Origin: Chloroflexota bacterium
Lineage (GTDB): Bacteria > Vulcanimicrobiota > JAMCWD01
Assembly (NCBI GenBank): GCA_023475345.1
Contig: JAMCWD010000038.1
Coordinates: forward strand, 1-64,000
Reading direction: 5' to 3'
Length of the DNA: 64,000 bases
Below the pieces are notes generated by a model that did not search any database, was not told where the DNA came from, and saw only the letters and a list, made by a program, of their open reading frames with translations. The position numbers were made by a program, and so were the translations under genes. Below, piece by piece: positions 18,111 through 24,679 of this stretch (position 1 is the stretch's first letter; each line of letters starts with the position of its first letter).

Positions 18111-19838
18111 TTGAGCCGGCTTCATTCAATCAATAAGCAAGTTATATTTTTTTCCGTTTTGATATTCCTCCTTAATCTATCCGTTTTTTATTATACAGTG
18201 AAGATAAGGGAGCCTTTCGCCACACCTCTTTGTGACGACAGGCACCAATCGCTGACTGCGGGGACGGTATTACTTGCAAGGCATTGGTACAGGGAAGGCG
18301 CGATGAATATGAGGTTCGCCATGGTCCGGAATCCCGGATCCATCGAATTCCCCGATTTGAACAGCAGGGGCATTTGCTCGACTTATCCGCCCGGCGCCGT
18401 TATGCCTGTATATTTGCTGAGCAGGATAAGCCATAATGAGCCTTCCCCGCGTATGGTTTACAGTTATAATTTGTTCAGTCATTTTTTGATTTCGCTTTTG
18501 CTTTCTCTGACGGTTTTTTTCTTTATTTCAAGGCTCACGTCGAAATATTCCGTTTCATTTTTGCTGTCTTTAATACCGATGCTTCTGGAGCTACTTTCCC
18601 CGATGCCTCTTTATTACCAGCAAAATGTATTTTTTGCTGACCAGGCCGTATTGCTTCCTTTTGCACTCGTGATTTTCCTGGAAACACTCCGCATGTATAA
18701 AACGCAAAACTACGTGATAGACGCATTGCTCTGGCTCGTGATGTTCTACGGGATACTCACCGACTGGCTTTTTGTTTTCATCGGCCTGATATTGTTTTTA
18801 AAAAGGCTTTTAAACGGGGAACTCGGACACGACCTCCGGCGGATCATGGCGAACAGCTTTTATTTCTGGTCGCCATTTATCGCCGGGCTGGGCCTGTTCC
18901 TGGTACAACTGTATTCCATCAATGCCGTGACGGACTTGAAAACCAGGGGGCTTTTAAGGCTGGGGCTGGCGGGGACAAGGCCGGACAATTTTTTCCAATC
19001 TTTCTGGCTTGAGTACGTTAAAGGCGGCTATCTTCTGGCAGGCGTGTTTATCCTCTGGGGGAGCCTGGCAGCGCTCTGTTGTGTGCTTGTATTCATATTA
19101 CTGAACAGGAAACGTGCAGGAACGGATTTTTATTTCAGGACGGCGGTCGAGGCCGCATCTCTTGCCGCTGTTGCGCTTCTCCCGTGCTTTTTGCAGGTAT
19201 ATACGCTGTTCGAACATTCTTATTATCACGAATACGCCGCTTTGAAATTCAGCATCCCGATGGCGATTGTGCCCTTTGTATTGATACCGGTTTCTCTTAT
19301 CGCAATTTTTTATTATTACTATGGAGGAAAAAAATTATCCGGGGGAAACATGCCGGCGCTTAAATTCGCGCCGTATTTACTCCTTGTGCTTGCCGGGTTT
19401 TATGTTTTTCTGATCCACGGCAGGTTCGTGTATTATTTTCCGGGAGCGGATAACAGCTATAAAACAGTAGGGGAATTTATCGACAAAAATACCGGCTATA
19501 AAGATATCGTGTTTTCATTTACGGATGAGATAGACGGCAACCCGGTCCCTCTTTCGTATTCCATGAAGAGAGTTTATAAAATAAAAAATATATCGGACAT
19601 CGCAACGTTCATGAACGACAGGAAAATTAAAGGCGATTATGTCATAGATATTTTTCAATCCGGCAAAAGATCGGATAATTTATCGCCCGCGATGACGAAG
19701 ATTTTATCGGGCTGGCCTGAGATAAAATCCGGCGACATGAAGCTTTACAGGATATCGAAGGAAGATTTTAACCTGTTCAAGCAGGGCTATTATTCGAATG
19801 AAAACGGCGGCGGGGAAACCAGGCGGGGCGCTTTATGA
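18111..19838 (+). CDS. Polytopic membrane protein, GT-C glycosyltransferase-like (paralogue A)
   Basis: A 575-residue inner-membrane protein with about ten hydrophobic segments and a C-terminal periplasmic-type domain (about 445-575). After the first helix comes an acidic pair in a loop (PLCDDRHQSLTAGT), followed by STYPPGAVMPVYL. Both resemble the catalytic Asp pair and the PPG/PPL block of GT-C sugar transferases such as ArnT and GT39, hence the inferred role. It is a clear paralogue of the protein at 21559-23298, sharing for example YYQQNVFFADQAV and AYSMKRVY-type segments. The start is TTG 18111, 10 bases after GAGGGGAAGG. The following radical SAM gene may be coupled. The substrate is unknown. 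Confidence 0.68.
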   Translation: MSRLHSINKQVIFFSVLIFLLNLSVFYYTVKIREPFATPLCDDRHQSLTAGTVLLARHWYREGAMNMRFAMVRNPGSIEFPDLNSRGICSTYPPGAVMPVYLLSRISHNEPSPRMVYSYNLFSHFLISLLLSLTVFFFISRLTSKYSVSFLLSLIPMLLELLSPMPLYYQQNVFFADQAVLLPFALVIFLETLRMYKTQNYVIDALLWLVMFYGILTDWLFVFIGLILFLKRLLNGELGHDLRRIMANSFYFWSPFIAGLGLFLVQLYSINAVTDLKTRGLLRLGLAGTRPDNFFQSFWLEYVKGGYLLAGVFILWGSLAALCCVLVFILLNRKRAGTDFYFRTAVEAASLAAVALLPCFLQVYTLFEHSYYHEYAALKFSIPMAIVPFVLIPVSLIAIFYYYYGGKKLSGGNMPALKFAPYLLLVLAGFYVFLIHGRFVYYFPGADNSYKTVGEFIDKNTGYKDIVFSFTDEIDGNPVPLSYSMKRVYKIKNISDIATFMNDRKIKGDYVIDIFQSGKRSDNLSPAMTKILSGWPEIKSGDMKLYRISKEDFNLFKQGYYSNENGGGETRRGAL

Positions 19839-19925
19839 TAAACTCCGGCTTTATCGGCAAAACCGGTGCCGGAAATTTCTGGTCTTGCAATTACTCCGGC
19901 CTGTCTGGTAATATTTAACTTGGTT

Positions 19926-21464
19926 ATGAATTCCTCAGACAAACCTTTTACGGCATTGATTTCTCTTTACGGCACGGAAAATGCCGGGTGCCGTTATTTA
20001 TATTCATCTCTTTCCAGGGCCGGGTACCCGGCCCATCTTGTTTTTTTCAAGGAATGGAGAAACAACGATATAGTCCCACCGTCGGAAAAAGAAATCCGCC
20101 TCCTGATATCACATCTGAAATCTATTTCCCCTGATCTTATCGGGATAGGCCTCGTATCCACCCTTTTTCCCATTGCCAGGGACCTGACGATAAGAATAAA
20201 GGACGAACTGGGGATACCCGTTTTATGGGGAGGGATTCATCCTACGGGCTTCCCGGTGGAGTGCCTGGAATACGCCGATTATATATGCCGCGGCGAAGGG
20301 GAAGAAACGCTGCCCGAATTGCTGCATTGTCTTGAAAAGGGGGAATCCCTGTCAGGCATCGCCGGACTTGGATACAAAGAGGGAGGCGATAAAAAAGTAA
20401 ACCCGGTACGCCCGCTCTTCCAGGATTTGGATTCGCTTCCGCTGCCTTACCTGGGAGACGACAACAAGGTTCTCATAGATAACGAGCGGCTGACGGAAGG
20501 CGAGCCTATCAAGCCGGGCGCCGAGTACAGGATCTATGTTTCCAGGGGATGCCCTTTTTCCTGCGCGTATTGTTATAACAGCATCCTGCGCAGGATGTAT
20601 AAAGGTCTGGGGAAATATTACCGTTTCCGCTCGGTGGAAAATGTTCTGAATGAGCTTGAGGAGGCTGTCAGGCTTTTCCCCAGGCTTCGTTTTATAAAAA
20701 TCGACGACGACACGTCTTTCTGCTATGGTGACGAGTGGCTCAGCGAGTTCTGCGAGAAATACCCGGCCAGAGTAGGTCTCCCTTTCGGCTGCCTGATTCA
20801 CCCGAAATTTTTAAGCAGGGACTTGCTTGAAAAATTGAAAGCCGTCGGGCTGGAGAGGATCCAGGTCGGCCTTGAGAGCGGCTCCCGCCGCGAGATAGAA
20901 GACGACTATCACAGGAAAGACACCCATGTCAAAATAAAAGAGTTTTCCGAATTCAACAGGGATTTGAAGATCGAAGTCGTTTACGATGTGATTATAGATA
21001 ACCCGACCGCTTCCGAAGAAGACAGGATAAACCAGGTGGAATACCTCATCGAGCTTGAAAGGCCGTTTAAAGTGTTTCTTTATTCGCTGAATTACCTTCC
21101 CGGCACCGAGCTTACCGAGAAGCTCCTTGCCGAAGGGGTAATAACGCCTGATGAGGTTGAGGGCAAATCGACGAAATCATGGCGCCAGTTCAGGGTGGAT
21201 TTTTCTTATCCCAGGAGCGCCGAAGACAGGTTTTACCTTGCGCTGCTCGTTCTTTCATCCCACCCGTGGATACCCAAGAGTCTTTTGAGGAAGTGGCTCA
21301 AATCCCGCTATTTAAGGAAACATCCCTGGCCGTTATGGATTTTGATGATATCGAGCAATACCGCAAGAATGGGTTTTGTCGCCCTCCAGATGCTTTTGCG
21401 CGGTGAGTTGACAATTTTCAAGCTCCGCCAGTACGCTCGCTTTTCCCGCATGATCTCACAGTAA
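19926..21464 (+). CDS. B12-binding-type radical SAM protein
   Basis: A 512-residue protein. The N-terminal part (about 1-150) resembles a cobalamin-binding Rossmann domain, with PDLIGIGLVST, VLWGGIHPTGFP and CRGEGEETLPELL. The radical SAM core begins with SRGCPFSCAYCYN near residue 210, a standard CX3CX2C site for the [4Fe-4S]-SAM cluster, and continues to about 400, where GLERIQVGLESGS is the typical late core motif. Related enzymes methylate or rearrange lipids, hopanoids or sugars, but the substrate cannot be read here. Its place between two paralogous GT-C-like genes suggests a shared envelope-glycan or lipid pathway. ATG 19926 is chosen; a GTG 20 codons upstream is possible. Confidence 0.8.
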   Translation: MNSSDKPFTALISLYGTENAGCRYLYSSLSRAGYPAHLVFFKEWRNNDIVPPSEKEIRLLISHLKSISPDLIGIGLVSTLFPIARDLTIRIKDELGIPVLWGGIHPTGFPVECLEYADYICRGEGEETLPELLHCLEKGESLSGIAGLGYKEGGDKKVNPVRPLFQDLDSLPLPYLGDDNKVLIDNERLTEGEPIKPGAEYRIYVSRGCPFSCAYCYNSILRRMYKGLGKYYRFRSVENVLNELEEAVRLFPRLRFIKIDDDTSFCYGDEWLSEFCEKYPARVGLPFGCLIHPKFLSRDLLEKLKAVGLERIQVGLESGSRREIEDDYHRKDTHVKIKEFSEFNRDLKIEVVYDVIIDNPTASEEDRINQVEYLIELERPFKVFLYSLNYLPGTELTEKLLAEGVITPDEVEGKSTKSWRQFRVDFSYPRSAEDRFYLALLVLSSHPWIPKSLLRKWLKSRYLRKHPWPLWILMISSNTARMGFVALQMLLRGELTIFKLRQYARFSRMISQ

Positions 21465-21558: not shown

Positions 21559-23298
21559 ATGAATTCACCTGAACGCCGGGCAATTAAAACGACAATTTTC
21601 GTTGTCCTGATTTTCATCGTCAGCCTTATTCTTTTCATATACAGCGTTCAGATAAGGAAGCCTTTTTTTACCGACCTTTCGGAAGAGCATCACCAGTCTC
21701 TGACCGGGGGGACAGTATTGTTCGCAAGGCACTGGTTCAGGGAAGGCATTTTTAAAACCGGCTTCATGATGATTGCCAATCCAAAGTCAGTTGAATTTAA
21801 CGGCCCAAGGGAAAGGTACGTATGTTGTACTTACCCGCCCGGCGCCCCTATCCCGGTATATTTGATAAGCAGGCTTATCGACAAAGAAGCTACGCCGGGA
21901 CTGGTTTTCAAGTATAATCTTGGGAACCATTTTTTTATAGCGTTTTTTCTTTCGCTGATAGTTTTCTTTTTTGTATTAAGAATTACGAATAAATATTTAA
22001 GCGCTTTTATCTTCGCCCTGATCCCTGTTTTATTCGAACTGATGTCGCCGCTGCCGCTTTATTATCACCAGAACGTGTTTTTTGCAGACCAGGCCGTGAT
22101 CCTTCCTTTCGTATTGATTATATTTCTGGAATCTTTGAGAACCGCCGATAAGAAATCCCGGCTGCTGGACGTCCTGGAATGGCTTGTCATTTTATGGGGG
22201 CTCCTTACGGAATGGCTTTTCATATTTGTTGTACCGGTATTATTCCTAATAAAATTGCTCGACGGGGATTTCGGCAAATCCGGAAGGGCGGTACGGAACA
22301 TCTTCATATTCTTTCTTCCGGCGGTTATCGTTGCCGTGGTTTATATCTGCCAGGTTCTGAGCCAGGATGCGGTGGGCTTACTGGTAAAAAAGTTTATGTT
22401 GAGGACAGGCTTGAGCGATAACGGGGGGGTAAGTTTTTTCAAGATGTTCTGGCTTAATTATTTTGCCGGAGGCTACAACGGGGCGGGCGTCTGGCTGATG
22501 TGGAGCAGCCTTGTTTTCCTTTTGCTCGCGGTGGTCTTTTTGATGATTAAGCGCAGAGTCTTAAAAAACAATTTTTACCTGGAAGCCGTTTATAAAGCGG
22601 TTTCAATTTCGGCCCTGGCCCTGCTGCCGTGTTTCCTGCATATCTATTTTTTATTCAACCATTCGTTTTCACATGATTTTTCGGCTTTAAAGTTTTCCGT
22701 CCCGATGGCACTGCTTCCGTTTGTATTTTTGCCGTTAATTGTGATCATGTCCTTTCAATATTACAACGGCCTGAAAAATTCAGGATCGGAAACATCCGGG
22801 GGCACAGGGCAGAATGCGGTCCGCCTGAAATATGCCCCGTTCATTCTCCTTGCCCTGGCGGCGGTTTATATATTTTCATTTCATGGCAGATATGTTTTTT
22901 ATTTCCCGAAGCCTGCAGACGGTTACCGGGCCGTCGGCGAGTTCCTGGACAGGAACACGGGTTACGAAGATATAGTTTTCTCGACTTCTTATGAAATAAT
23001 TCTCAACCCGATCCAACTGGCTTATTCCATGAAGCGTGTTTATCGCATAAACGGCCTTCAGGATATAATCGATTTCGTAAAAAATACAGATTTGCGCGGC
23101 GAATATGTAATCAACTTATTTGAAAAAGATAAAACGCATATCAGGGAAGCCCCGGGTCTTCGGGCGCTTATTGCCGGGGCGAAAAAAGCCGAATCGGAAA
23201 ACATGGTCCTTTATAAGATCGACAGGCGGACATTTGGAAAAATCATGTCTGAATACTGGAAAAAGTCGATTGAAGGCGGCAGAAAGCCTCCGGGATGA
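21559..23298 (+). CDS. Polytopic membrane protein, GT-C glycosyltransferase-like (paralogue B)
   Basis: A 579-residue multi-spanning protein paralogous along its whole length to the one at 18111-19838. Shared blocks include SEEHHQSLTGGTVLFARHW near 47, the TYPPGAPIPVYL block near 94, the LYYHQNVFFADQAV block, a SFSHDFSALKFSVPMAL loop and a C-terminal YSMKRVYRI segment. The acidic loop followed by a YPPG block suggests a GT-C type polyprenyl-phosphate-sugar transferase, but this is inference. An AAGGA site lies upstream of the ATG. A diverged 147-bp copy of its 3' end lies beyond pfkB, at 24533-24679. Confidence 0.68.
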   Translation: MNSPERRAIKTTIFVVLIFIVSLILFIYSVQIRKPFFTDLSEEHHQSLTGGTVLFARHWFREGIFKTGFMMIANPKSVEFNGPRERYVCCTYPPGAPIPVYLISRLIDKEATPGLVFKYNLGNHFFIAFFLSLIVFFFVLRITNKYLSAFIFALIPVLFELMSPLPLYYHQNVFFADQAVILPFVLIIFLESLRTADKKSRLLDVLEWLVILWGLLTEWLFIFVVPVLFLIKLLDGDFGKSGRAVRNIFIFFLPAVIVAVVYICQVLSQDAVGLLVKKFMLRTGLSDNGGVSFFKMFWLNYFAGGYNGAGVWLMWSSLVFLLLAVVFLMIKRRVLKNNFYLEAVYKAVSISALALLPCFLHIYFLFNHSFSHDFSALKFSVPMALLPFVFLPLIVIMSFQYYNGLKNSGSETSGGTGQNAVRLKYAPFILLALAAVYIFSFHGRYVFYFPKPADGYRAVGEFLDRNTGYEDIVFSTSYEIILNPIQLAYSMKRVYRINGLQDIIDFVKNTDLRGEYVINLFEKDKTHIREAPGLRALIAGAKKAESENMVLYKIDRRTFGKIMSEYWKKSIEGGRKPPG

Positions 23299-23379
23299 GG
23301 GAATTGAACATTTGTTCGATGGCGAAGCATATCAAACGGTCGGAATCGATATGTAATTTCAATTGACGGAGGTTAAGAA

Positions 23380-24312
23380 ATGATTGTAACTCTGACCATG
23401 AACCCGGCTATAGATACGAGTTCCGGCGTTGACCATGTCATAGCCGACCGGAAGCTGAGATGTTCCGCGCCGGGTTACGACCCCGGCGGCGGCGGCCTTA
23501 ATGTGTCGCGAGCGATAATGGAGCTGGGAGGAGATTCTCTTGCCATATACCCGTCAGGCGGGTGGCTGGGGAAAATGCTGGAAGGGCTTATCGATAAAGA
23601 AGGCTTGAATCACAGGTCTATCCCTATTGAAAAATCCACAAGAGAGAATTTGAATTTTTTTGAGAAAATAAGCGGCCGGCAATTCCGCTTCGGCATGCCC
23701 GGGCCTGAGTTAAAAGAAGAAGAATGGAAGCGCTGCCTTGATGCCTTGCGCGCCGTGGAGCCGAAGCCTGATTACATAGTGGCAAGCGGGAGCCTCCCGC
23801 CGGGGGTGCCCGTCAATTTTTATGCGCTCGCTGCAGATATTGCAAGGGAACTCGGCTCAAAATTAATTGTCGATACTTCGGGTGATGAATTGCGCATAGC
23901 CGCAAATGCCGGGGTTTATCTCTTAAAGCCGAATATTGCCGAGTTCCAGACCCTTGTAGGGGAGGAGATCAAAAACGAAAAAAGGCAGATGGAACTTGCC
24001 AGGAAAATAATCGCGTCGGGAAAGACCGAGGTTCTTGTGATTTCGATGGGCGTAGCGGGTGCTTTGCTCGTTACGAAGGACATTTATGAGCATATAAGAG
24101 CCCCTATCGTACCTATCGAGAGCAGGGTGGGCGCAGGGGACAGCATGGTCGCAGGCATCGTGTTCGGCCTGGAATCCGGAAAACCCCTCAGGGACGCCGT
24201 GCGTTTCGGTGTGGCTACAGGTGCGGCGGCCGTCATGTCGCCGGGGACAGGACTGTGTTGTAAAGGCGTTGCCGAAGAAATTTATGCCCGGATGGCATCC
24301 CAGAATTTTTAA
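23380..24312 (+). CDS. pfkB: 6-phosphofructokinase, PfkB type (ribokinase family)
   Basis: A 310-residue cytosolic sugar kinase that should phosphorylate fructose 6-phosphate in glycolysis. It matches E. coli PfkB (309 residues) in many blocks: KLRCSAPGYDPGGGGLNVSR near 25-44, RFGMPGPEL near 103, SGSLPPGV near 136, and the anion-hole and catalytic motif VGAGDSMVAG at 250-259 with Asp254 as the base. Related 1-phosphofructokinases and tagatose kinases are the main alternatives, but the KLRC and MPG blocks favour PfkB. A GGAGG site sits at 23369-23373. The gene is bracketed by a 147-bp direct repeat (23175-23321 and 24533-24679). Confidence 0.85.
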   Translation: MIVTLTMNPAIDTSSGVDHVIADRKLRCSAPGYDPGGGGLNVSRAIMELGGDSLAIYPSGGWLGKMLEGLIDKEGLNHRSIPIEKSTRENLNFFEKISGRQFRFGMPGPELKEEEWKRCLDALRAVEPKPDYIVASGSLPPGVPVNFYALAADIARELGSKLIVDTSGDELRIAANAGVYLLKPNIAEFQTLVGEEIKNEKRQMELARKIIASGKTEVLVISMGVAGALLVTKDIYEHIRAPIVPIESRVGAGDSMVAGIVFGLESGKPLRDAVRFGVATGAAAVMSPGTGLCCKGVAEEIYARMASQNF

Positions 24313-24429
24313 AACCCCGGCTGCTTGCTGATTATTCTTAGACCTCGCTCCCGAAGTGAGCGCATGAGGAAGACGGAAAGGTTCCCGACAGGCTCGAACA
24401 ATATTTTTACAGGACGGCGCTGACAGGGC

Positions 24430-24543
24430 ATGAATTTTGCATTGAACGAATCGATATTCACAGGCACATCGGGGTGGCACTACGAGCATTGGAAGAACGT
24501 TTTTTATCCACCGGGTCTTCCGGCCTTATGTTCGGGGCGATAA
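24430..24543 (+). pseudogene. Truncated 5' fragment of a DUF72 family gene
   Basis: From ATG 24430, 37 codons encode a peptide with SIFTGTSGWHYEHWKNVF followed by YPPGLP. This is the highly conserved N-terminus of DUF72 proteins (normally about 240-300 residues, TIM-barrel-like, function poorly known). The frame stops at TAA 24541-24543, just after it runs into a duplicated tail of the membrane protein gene (copy starts 24533). The remaining roughly 85% of DUF72 is absent. This is a dead fragment formed by a recombination or insertion event. Confidence 0.72.
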
Positions 24544-24679
24544 AAACCGAATCAAAAAACACGGGACTTCATAAGATCGACAGGCGGACATTTGAAAAAA
24601 TCATGTCTGAATACGGGAAAAAGTCGATTAAAGACGACAGCATGCCCCCGGGATGTAGGAATTGAACATTTGTTCGATG
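24533..24679 (+). repeat. Diverged direct duplication of the 3' end of the GT-C-like gene at 21559
   Basis: These 147 bases align without gaps to 23175-23321, the last 41 codons of paralogue B plus its immediate 3' flank. My hand count gives about 18 differences, near 88% identity. The copy still encodes HKIDRRTFEKIMSEYGKKS in frame but has no start of its own. It is fused to the DUF72 fragment. The rest of the 470-base gap (24313-24782) holds a CGCTC/GAGCG hairpin near 24345 and an AT-rich leader to the next gene. Confidence 0.75.

Follow-up and report, generated by a model that had tools for sequence, protein, structure and literature searches.

A probable rearrangement scar in which the start of a DUF72 gene meets a duplicated gene tail beside a pfkB-family kinase gene

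Introduction

Positions 24430-24679 of the window (the whole 64,000-nucleotide stretch of DNA analysed) begin like a DUF72 gene and end like a neighbouring membrane protein gene, which raises the question of whether this segment is a gene at all and how its two halves came together. The source is a 3.25-Mb draft assembly of 71 contigs, estimated to be 86% complete; in the comparison set its class is represented by this genome alone, and its phylum by 57 others. We conclude that the segment is very likely a non-functional rearrangement scar, that is, a pseudogene. An earlier sequence-only reading had proposed an old rearrangement that fused a DUF72 head to a duplicated gene tail, and the direct repeats, a 10-mer shared by both genes, and the loss of the DUF72 body all support this. 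The features of the locus are collected in Table 1.

Table 1. Features at and around the joint, in window coordinates
Feature	Position	Strand	Basis
Membrane protein gene, 575 aa	18111-19838	+	
Radical-SAM gene	19866-21464	+	
Gene for a 579-aa integral membrane protein with a GT-C fold; origin of the copied tail	21559-23298	+	
Repeat copy 1: final 48 codons of the GT-C gene with its stop, plus 23 bp beyond	23152-23321	+	Local alignment; BLAST 86% over 170 bp
Hexose kinase gene of the pfkB family, intact, flanked by the repeat copies	23380-24312	+	PF00294, TIGR03168
Interspersed intergenic repeat of ~96 bp, one copy	24329-24423	+	Own-genome BLAST; sequence model R1
DUF72 gene head, residues 1-31 (GTSGWHYEHWKNVFYPPGLP), remainder absent	24430-24522	+	tblastn, PDB 1vpq, alignment
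Joint CCGGGTCTTC: PGL codons of DUF72 = PGL codons of the GT-C gene	24511-24520	+	
Repeat copy 2: GT-C tail in decayed form, with a one-base gap and without the original stop	24511-24679	+	
Beta-helix lipoprotein-like gene	Start 24744 or 24783	+	

Results and Discussion

A DUF72 head without its body

The reading frame that opens at the ATG at 24430 has 37 codons, the last of which lie in the copied tail, followed by a stop. All 37 had been assigned to DUF72; the start and the DUF72-like character hold, but only residues 1-31 belong to that family. A tblastn search against plasmids (E limit 10) matched 80 records, the best with 75% identity across residues 8-31 (E 3e-5); for each of the 20 listed of these 80, the match ended at residue 30-32. 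The structure of TM1631 (PDB 1vpq) aligns to residues 8-30 of the head with an E-value of 0.019, and in an alignment with nine full-length DUF72 proteins five invariant residues are kept and similarity stops at P31. The fragment therefore resembles the DUF72 family (PF01904; TM1631, PDB 1vpq) in bearing the N-terminal GTSGW-Y-W-FYP-LP signature, within the segment GTSGW...FYP.GLP, and differs from it in retaining only ~31 of ~250 residues, with the whole Pfam domain body (~217 positions) missing. Searching the fragment with hmmscan returned no families, and there was no match in NCBIfam. This silence of Pfam is to be expected, since the Pfam match to the one other DUF72 gene of the genome does not start until after the GTSGW-type segment. 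That gene (C53:13387-14118) is different and full-length, and is the only PF01904 match genome-wide; the assembly holds no second DUF72 gene resembling the fragment. A literature search on DUF72 together with pseudogenes returned nothing relevant. We also considered a pfkB-DUF72 neighbourhood within the phylum and set it aside: in a comparison by eye of the places listed, the two genes lie within ~4 kb of each other only in one genome (G017), in opposite orientation, and we do not count this as evidence.

As none of the three forward frames past the joint continues DUF72, a single sequencing error or frameshift is excluded as the cause of the break. An artefact of assembly or sequencing is a broader concern in a draft genome with this number of contigs and this level of completeness, but it is very improbable here: the absence of any DUF72 continuation argues against it, and the two copies of the tail differ by 12-14%, which rules out a collapsed or duplicated contig end.

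A joint at ten shared bases and a direct repeat around pfkB

The DUF72 and GT-C similarities meet in the 10-mer CCGGGTCTTC (23152-23161 at the GT-C gene), where each of the two genes has PGL codons, read in the same phase. It occurs twice in the window, both times at this repeat pair, and in the 40 bp upstream of it 11 of 40 bases are identical between the two sites. The joint had been placed at CGGGGCGA, which is not borne out, as that sequence sits inside the copied tail.

From this 10-mer onward the two copies align locally with 147 of 170 columns identical and one gap; the score is 223, compared with a maximum of 32 among 1000 shuffles, none of which reached it. The claim of a gap-free 147-bp copy of roughly 88% identity was accurate for the core of the repeat (129 of 147 positions, or 87.8%, between 23175-23321 and 24533-24679), unlike the extended repeat, which is not gap-free. 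This is the sole long two-copy direct repeat of the window, and BLAST with the fragment finds two places only, with no third copy in the 3.25-Mb assembly. The copies do bracket pfkB as had been described, and the enclosed hexose kinase gene is matched by both PF00294 (E 1.2e-46, 159.9 bits against a cut-off of 25.8) and the NCBIfam 1-PFK subfamily TIGR03168 (280 bits against a cut-off of 216.4). Judging from the sequence of the repeats, recombination between them could remove pfkB together with the fragment, but at this length and divergence such events would probably be rare. The copies share no exact run longer than 24 bp, so exchange of the RecA type would at best be infrequent; for E. coli, the rule of thumb for such exchange is ~25 bp.

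The source of the tail

The tail derives from the second of two membrane protein genes (18111-19838 and 21559-23298) whose products are paralogues with 47% identity. Neither has a Pfam model above cut-off or an NCBIfam match, and for the second there was no Pfam match up to an E-value of 1 and no NCBIfam match up to 10. An AlphaFold model of the latter product, built from five input sequences, is of modest confidence (mean pLDDT 62, pTM 0.63). When it was compared with the PDB, the top 21 matches (E 4e-6 to 6e-3) were all GT-C enzymes, namely STT3/PglB/AglB, ArnT, and DPY19, two of them being oligosaccharyltransferases inside translocon entries, and the label “GT-C-like” given earlier to the parent gene is therefore supported. 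The protein was found in none of the 57 other genomes of the phylum, and a collection of genomes from 84,980 species yielded four distant relatives. Relatives at 26-37% come from Omnitrophota, Hydrogenedentes, and a MAG labelled Alphaproteobacteria. The copied segment corresponds to the last 48 residues of the protein, a poorly conserved stretch in which homologues from other phyla stop or diverge; this region is not shared by the three distant relatives that were aligned (of the four found), and none of the conserved portion of the protein falls within it.

Decay of the copied tail

Among the aligned codons of the two tails, 16 changes are nonsynonymous and three synonymous, giving an estimated dN/dS of 1.45 from only 19 changes. 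By codon position the changes number 5, 7, and 5, and from copy 1 to copy 2, G to A accounts for 8 of the 20 differences. In these comparisons the copied tail is without sign of purifying selection and its divergence is neutral-looking. We suggest that the frames 24430-24540 and 24474-24665 should not be annotated as genes.

A functional role for the tail copy, in which it would have been retained as a promoter, an operator, or a small protein for the downstream beta-helix gene, appears quite improbable. Several features would fit it: a frame of 63 codons is open, the final 22 bp of the two copies are identical, and both end in an identical palindrome, GAACATTTGTTC (23306-23317 and 24664-24675). 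The palindrome precedes pfkB by 62 bp and the beta-helix gene by 68 or 107 bp, depending on which of the two possible starts of that gene is used. It resembles a Gram-positive LexA box, and a LexA/SOS operator at the ends of both copies was considered. This was rejected, as no LexA-family protein was found and the motif CGAAC-N4-GTTC is not enriched in the genome (12 and 11 occurrences on the two strands, whereas the reversed control gave 38 and 46). Promoter-like matches are at the level expected from shuffles, and the dN/dS of the tail is not below 1, both of which also count against a functional tail copy.

An interspersed repeat upstream of the head

The spacer between pfkB and the DUF72 head is occupied by a copy of an interspersed repeat (24329-24423) that ends 6 bp before the DUF72 ATG. 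BLAST of this copy against its own genome found a further 17 places at E <= 1, though chance may account for the weakest, and a sequence-only model (R1) built from nine copies found 16 places at E <= 0.01, including those nine. Copies are distributed over contigs C55, C19, C29, C22, C42, C4, C70, C66, C36, C1, C16, C43, C41, and C20. None of the 57 other genomes of the phylum has the repeat at E <= 0.001, leaving the present genome alone among 58. Neighbouring genes were read for 7 of the 16 copies; each of the seven sits between large ORFs, and both orientations occur. Two copies have in common a 36-bp GC-rich internal insert. The copy at C1:35015-35154 has an internal partial duplication in which CTCGAACAATAT appears twice.

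Three explanations for this repeat were examined and rejected. As an RNA, it has no Rfam match (the search returned one unrelated match, far below the gathering score), no unusual or conserved fold, and no covariation. As a mini-gene (MEKFPTGSNNIF), it has no coding signature, with 22, 17, and 16 changes by codon position and, in the 13 copies compared after one of 14 (C40) was dropped, 9 synonymous and 34 nonsynonymous codons. As an inverted-repeat element, it has no significant terminal inverted repeats or palindrome; among the 7 scorable of 13 copies, the inverted ends of six are within the range of shuffles, and those of the C55 copy were reached by 12 of 500 shuffles. The nearest described kinds are REP and RU elements (PMC3733652, PMC2759123). 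Like REP, RU/ERIC, and MITE-like small repeats, the ~96-bp element is short, multicopy, intergenic, and restricted to its genome, but, unlike them, it lacks a significant terminal inverted repeat, a consensus fold, and an Rfam match. It may be a mobile or structural DNA element not yet described and confined to this lineage, one that might promote local rearrangements such as the DUF72 break in the way that REP sequences do at amplification joints in E. coli, although we regard this as unlikely. Since the joint lies ~90 bp downstream of the element, a causal role is put forward only as a possibility. The repeat family may nonetheless merit a catalogue entry.

Order of events

How the joint arose can be modelled in more than one way. 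Our leading model, which we favour tentatively and at somewhat less than an even chance, is a tandem duplication. In the ancestor, the GT-C gene would have been followed by pfkB, then by the interspersed repeat, and finally by an intact DUF72 gene. CCGGGTCTTC at the conserved PGL codons of DUF72 would then have been joined to CCGGGTCTTC near the end of the GT-C gene through replication slippage, template switching, or unequal crossing-over, so that a 1.36-kb tandem duplication over 10 bp of microhomology created a new joint between the DUF72 head and the GT-C tail. A subsequent deletion, starting just past the copied tail, would have taken the second pfkB and the intact DUF72 gene, and the leftover fragment would have decayed without selection. 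A tandem duplication yields the observed order directly, with one later deletion then required. Against this model, neither a second pfkB nor the rest of DUF72 has left a trace after copy 2, and the extension of the repeat beyond 23321/24679 is at chance level: in a left-anchored test, the similarity past these ends was equalled in 69 of 2000 shuffles and by 136 of 2000 pieces of the window. That copy 2 reaches the ribosome-binding site of pfkB, which would favour tandem duplication, is rejected by this test. A global alignment of the same extension was equalled by 3 of 1000 shuffles, but its ends had been preselected by the earlier local alignment.

A close rival, possible but on the unlikely side, is a deletion in which a third, recently duplicated GT-C paralogue once lay downstream of an intact DUF72 gene, and the sequence between them was lost over the same 10-bp microhomology. 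In its favour, the locus already has two GT-C paralogues. The DUF72 head also appears less decayed than the adjoining tail, its invariant residues being kept while the tail has diverged by ~13%. This would fit a truncation that took place after the tail had been copied, and it counts against the order of events under tandem duplication. On the other hand, this scenario needs not only the deletion but also a dispersed duplication of the GT-C gene past pfkB and DUF72, and the assembly has no intact third GT-C paralogue, although because it is 86% complete such a gene, or an intact DUF72 of this type, may sit in the missing sequence. Tandem duplication remains the model that we favour, with the order and mechanism of its steps inferred.

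Comparison with known rearrangements

By itself the scar is of little significance, but it provides an example of gene loss in which two unrelated genes became fused through a 10-bp match within a conserved motif, after which the fusion product decayed. Amplification junctions in E. coli offer the closest comparison: microhomology was present at all 40 sequenced junctions, 16 of the 40 were in REP sequences, and embedded inverted duplications shared 3 to 30 bp (PMC3161906). Compared with those junctions, the event described here is old and decayed and is seen in one draft genome only, with a mechanism that is inferred. In both cases direct repeats meet at a few shared bases, of which there are 10 here.
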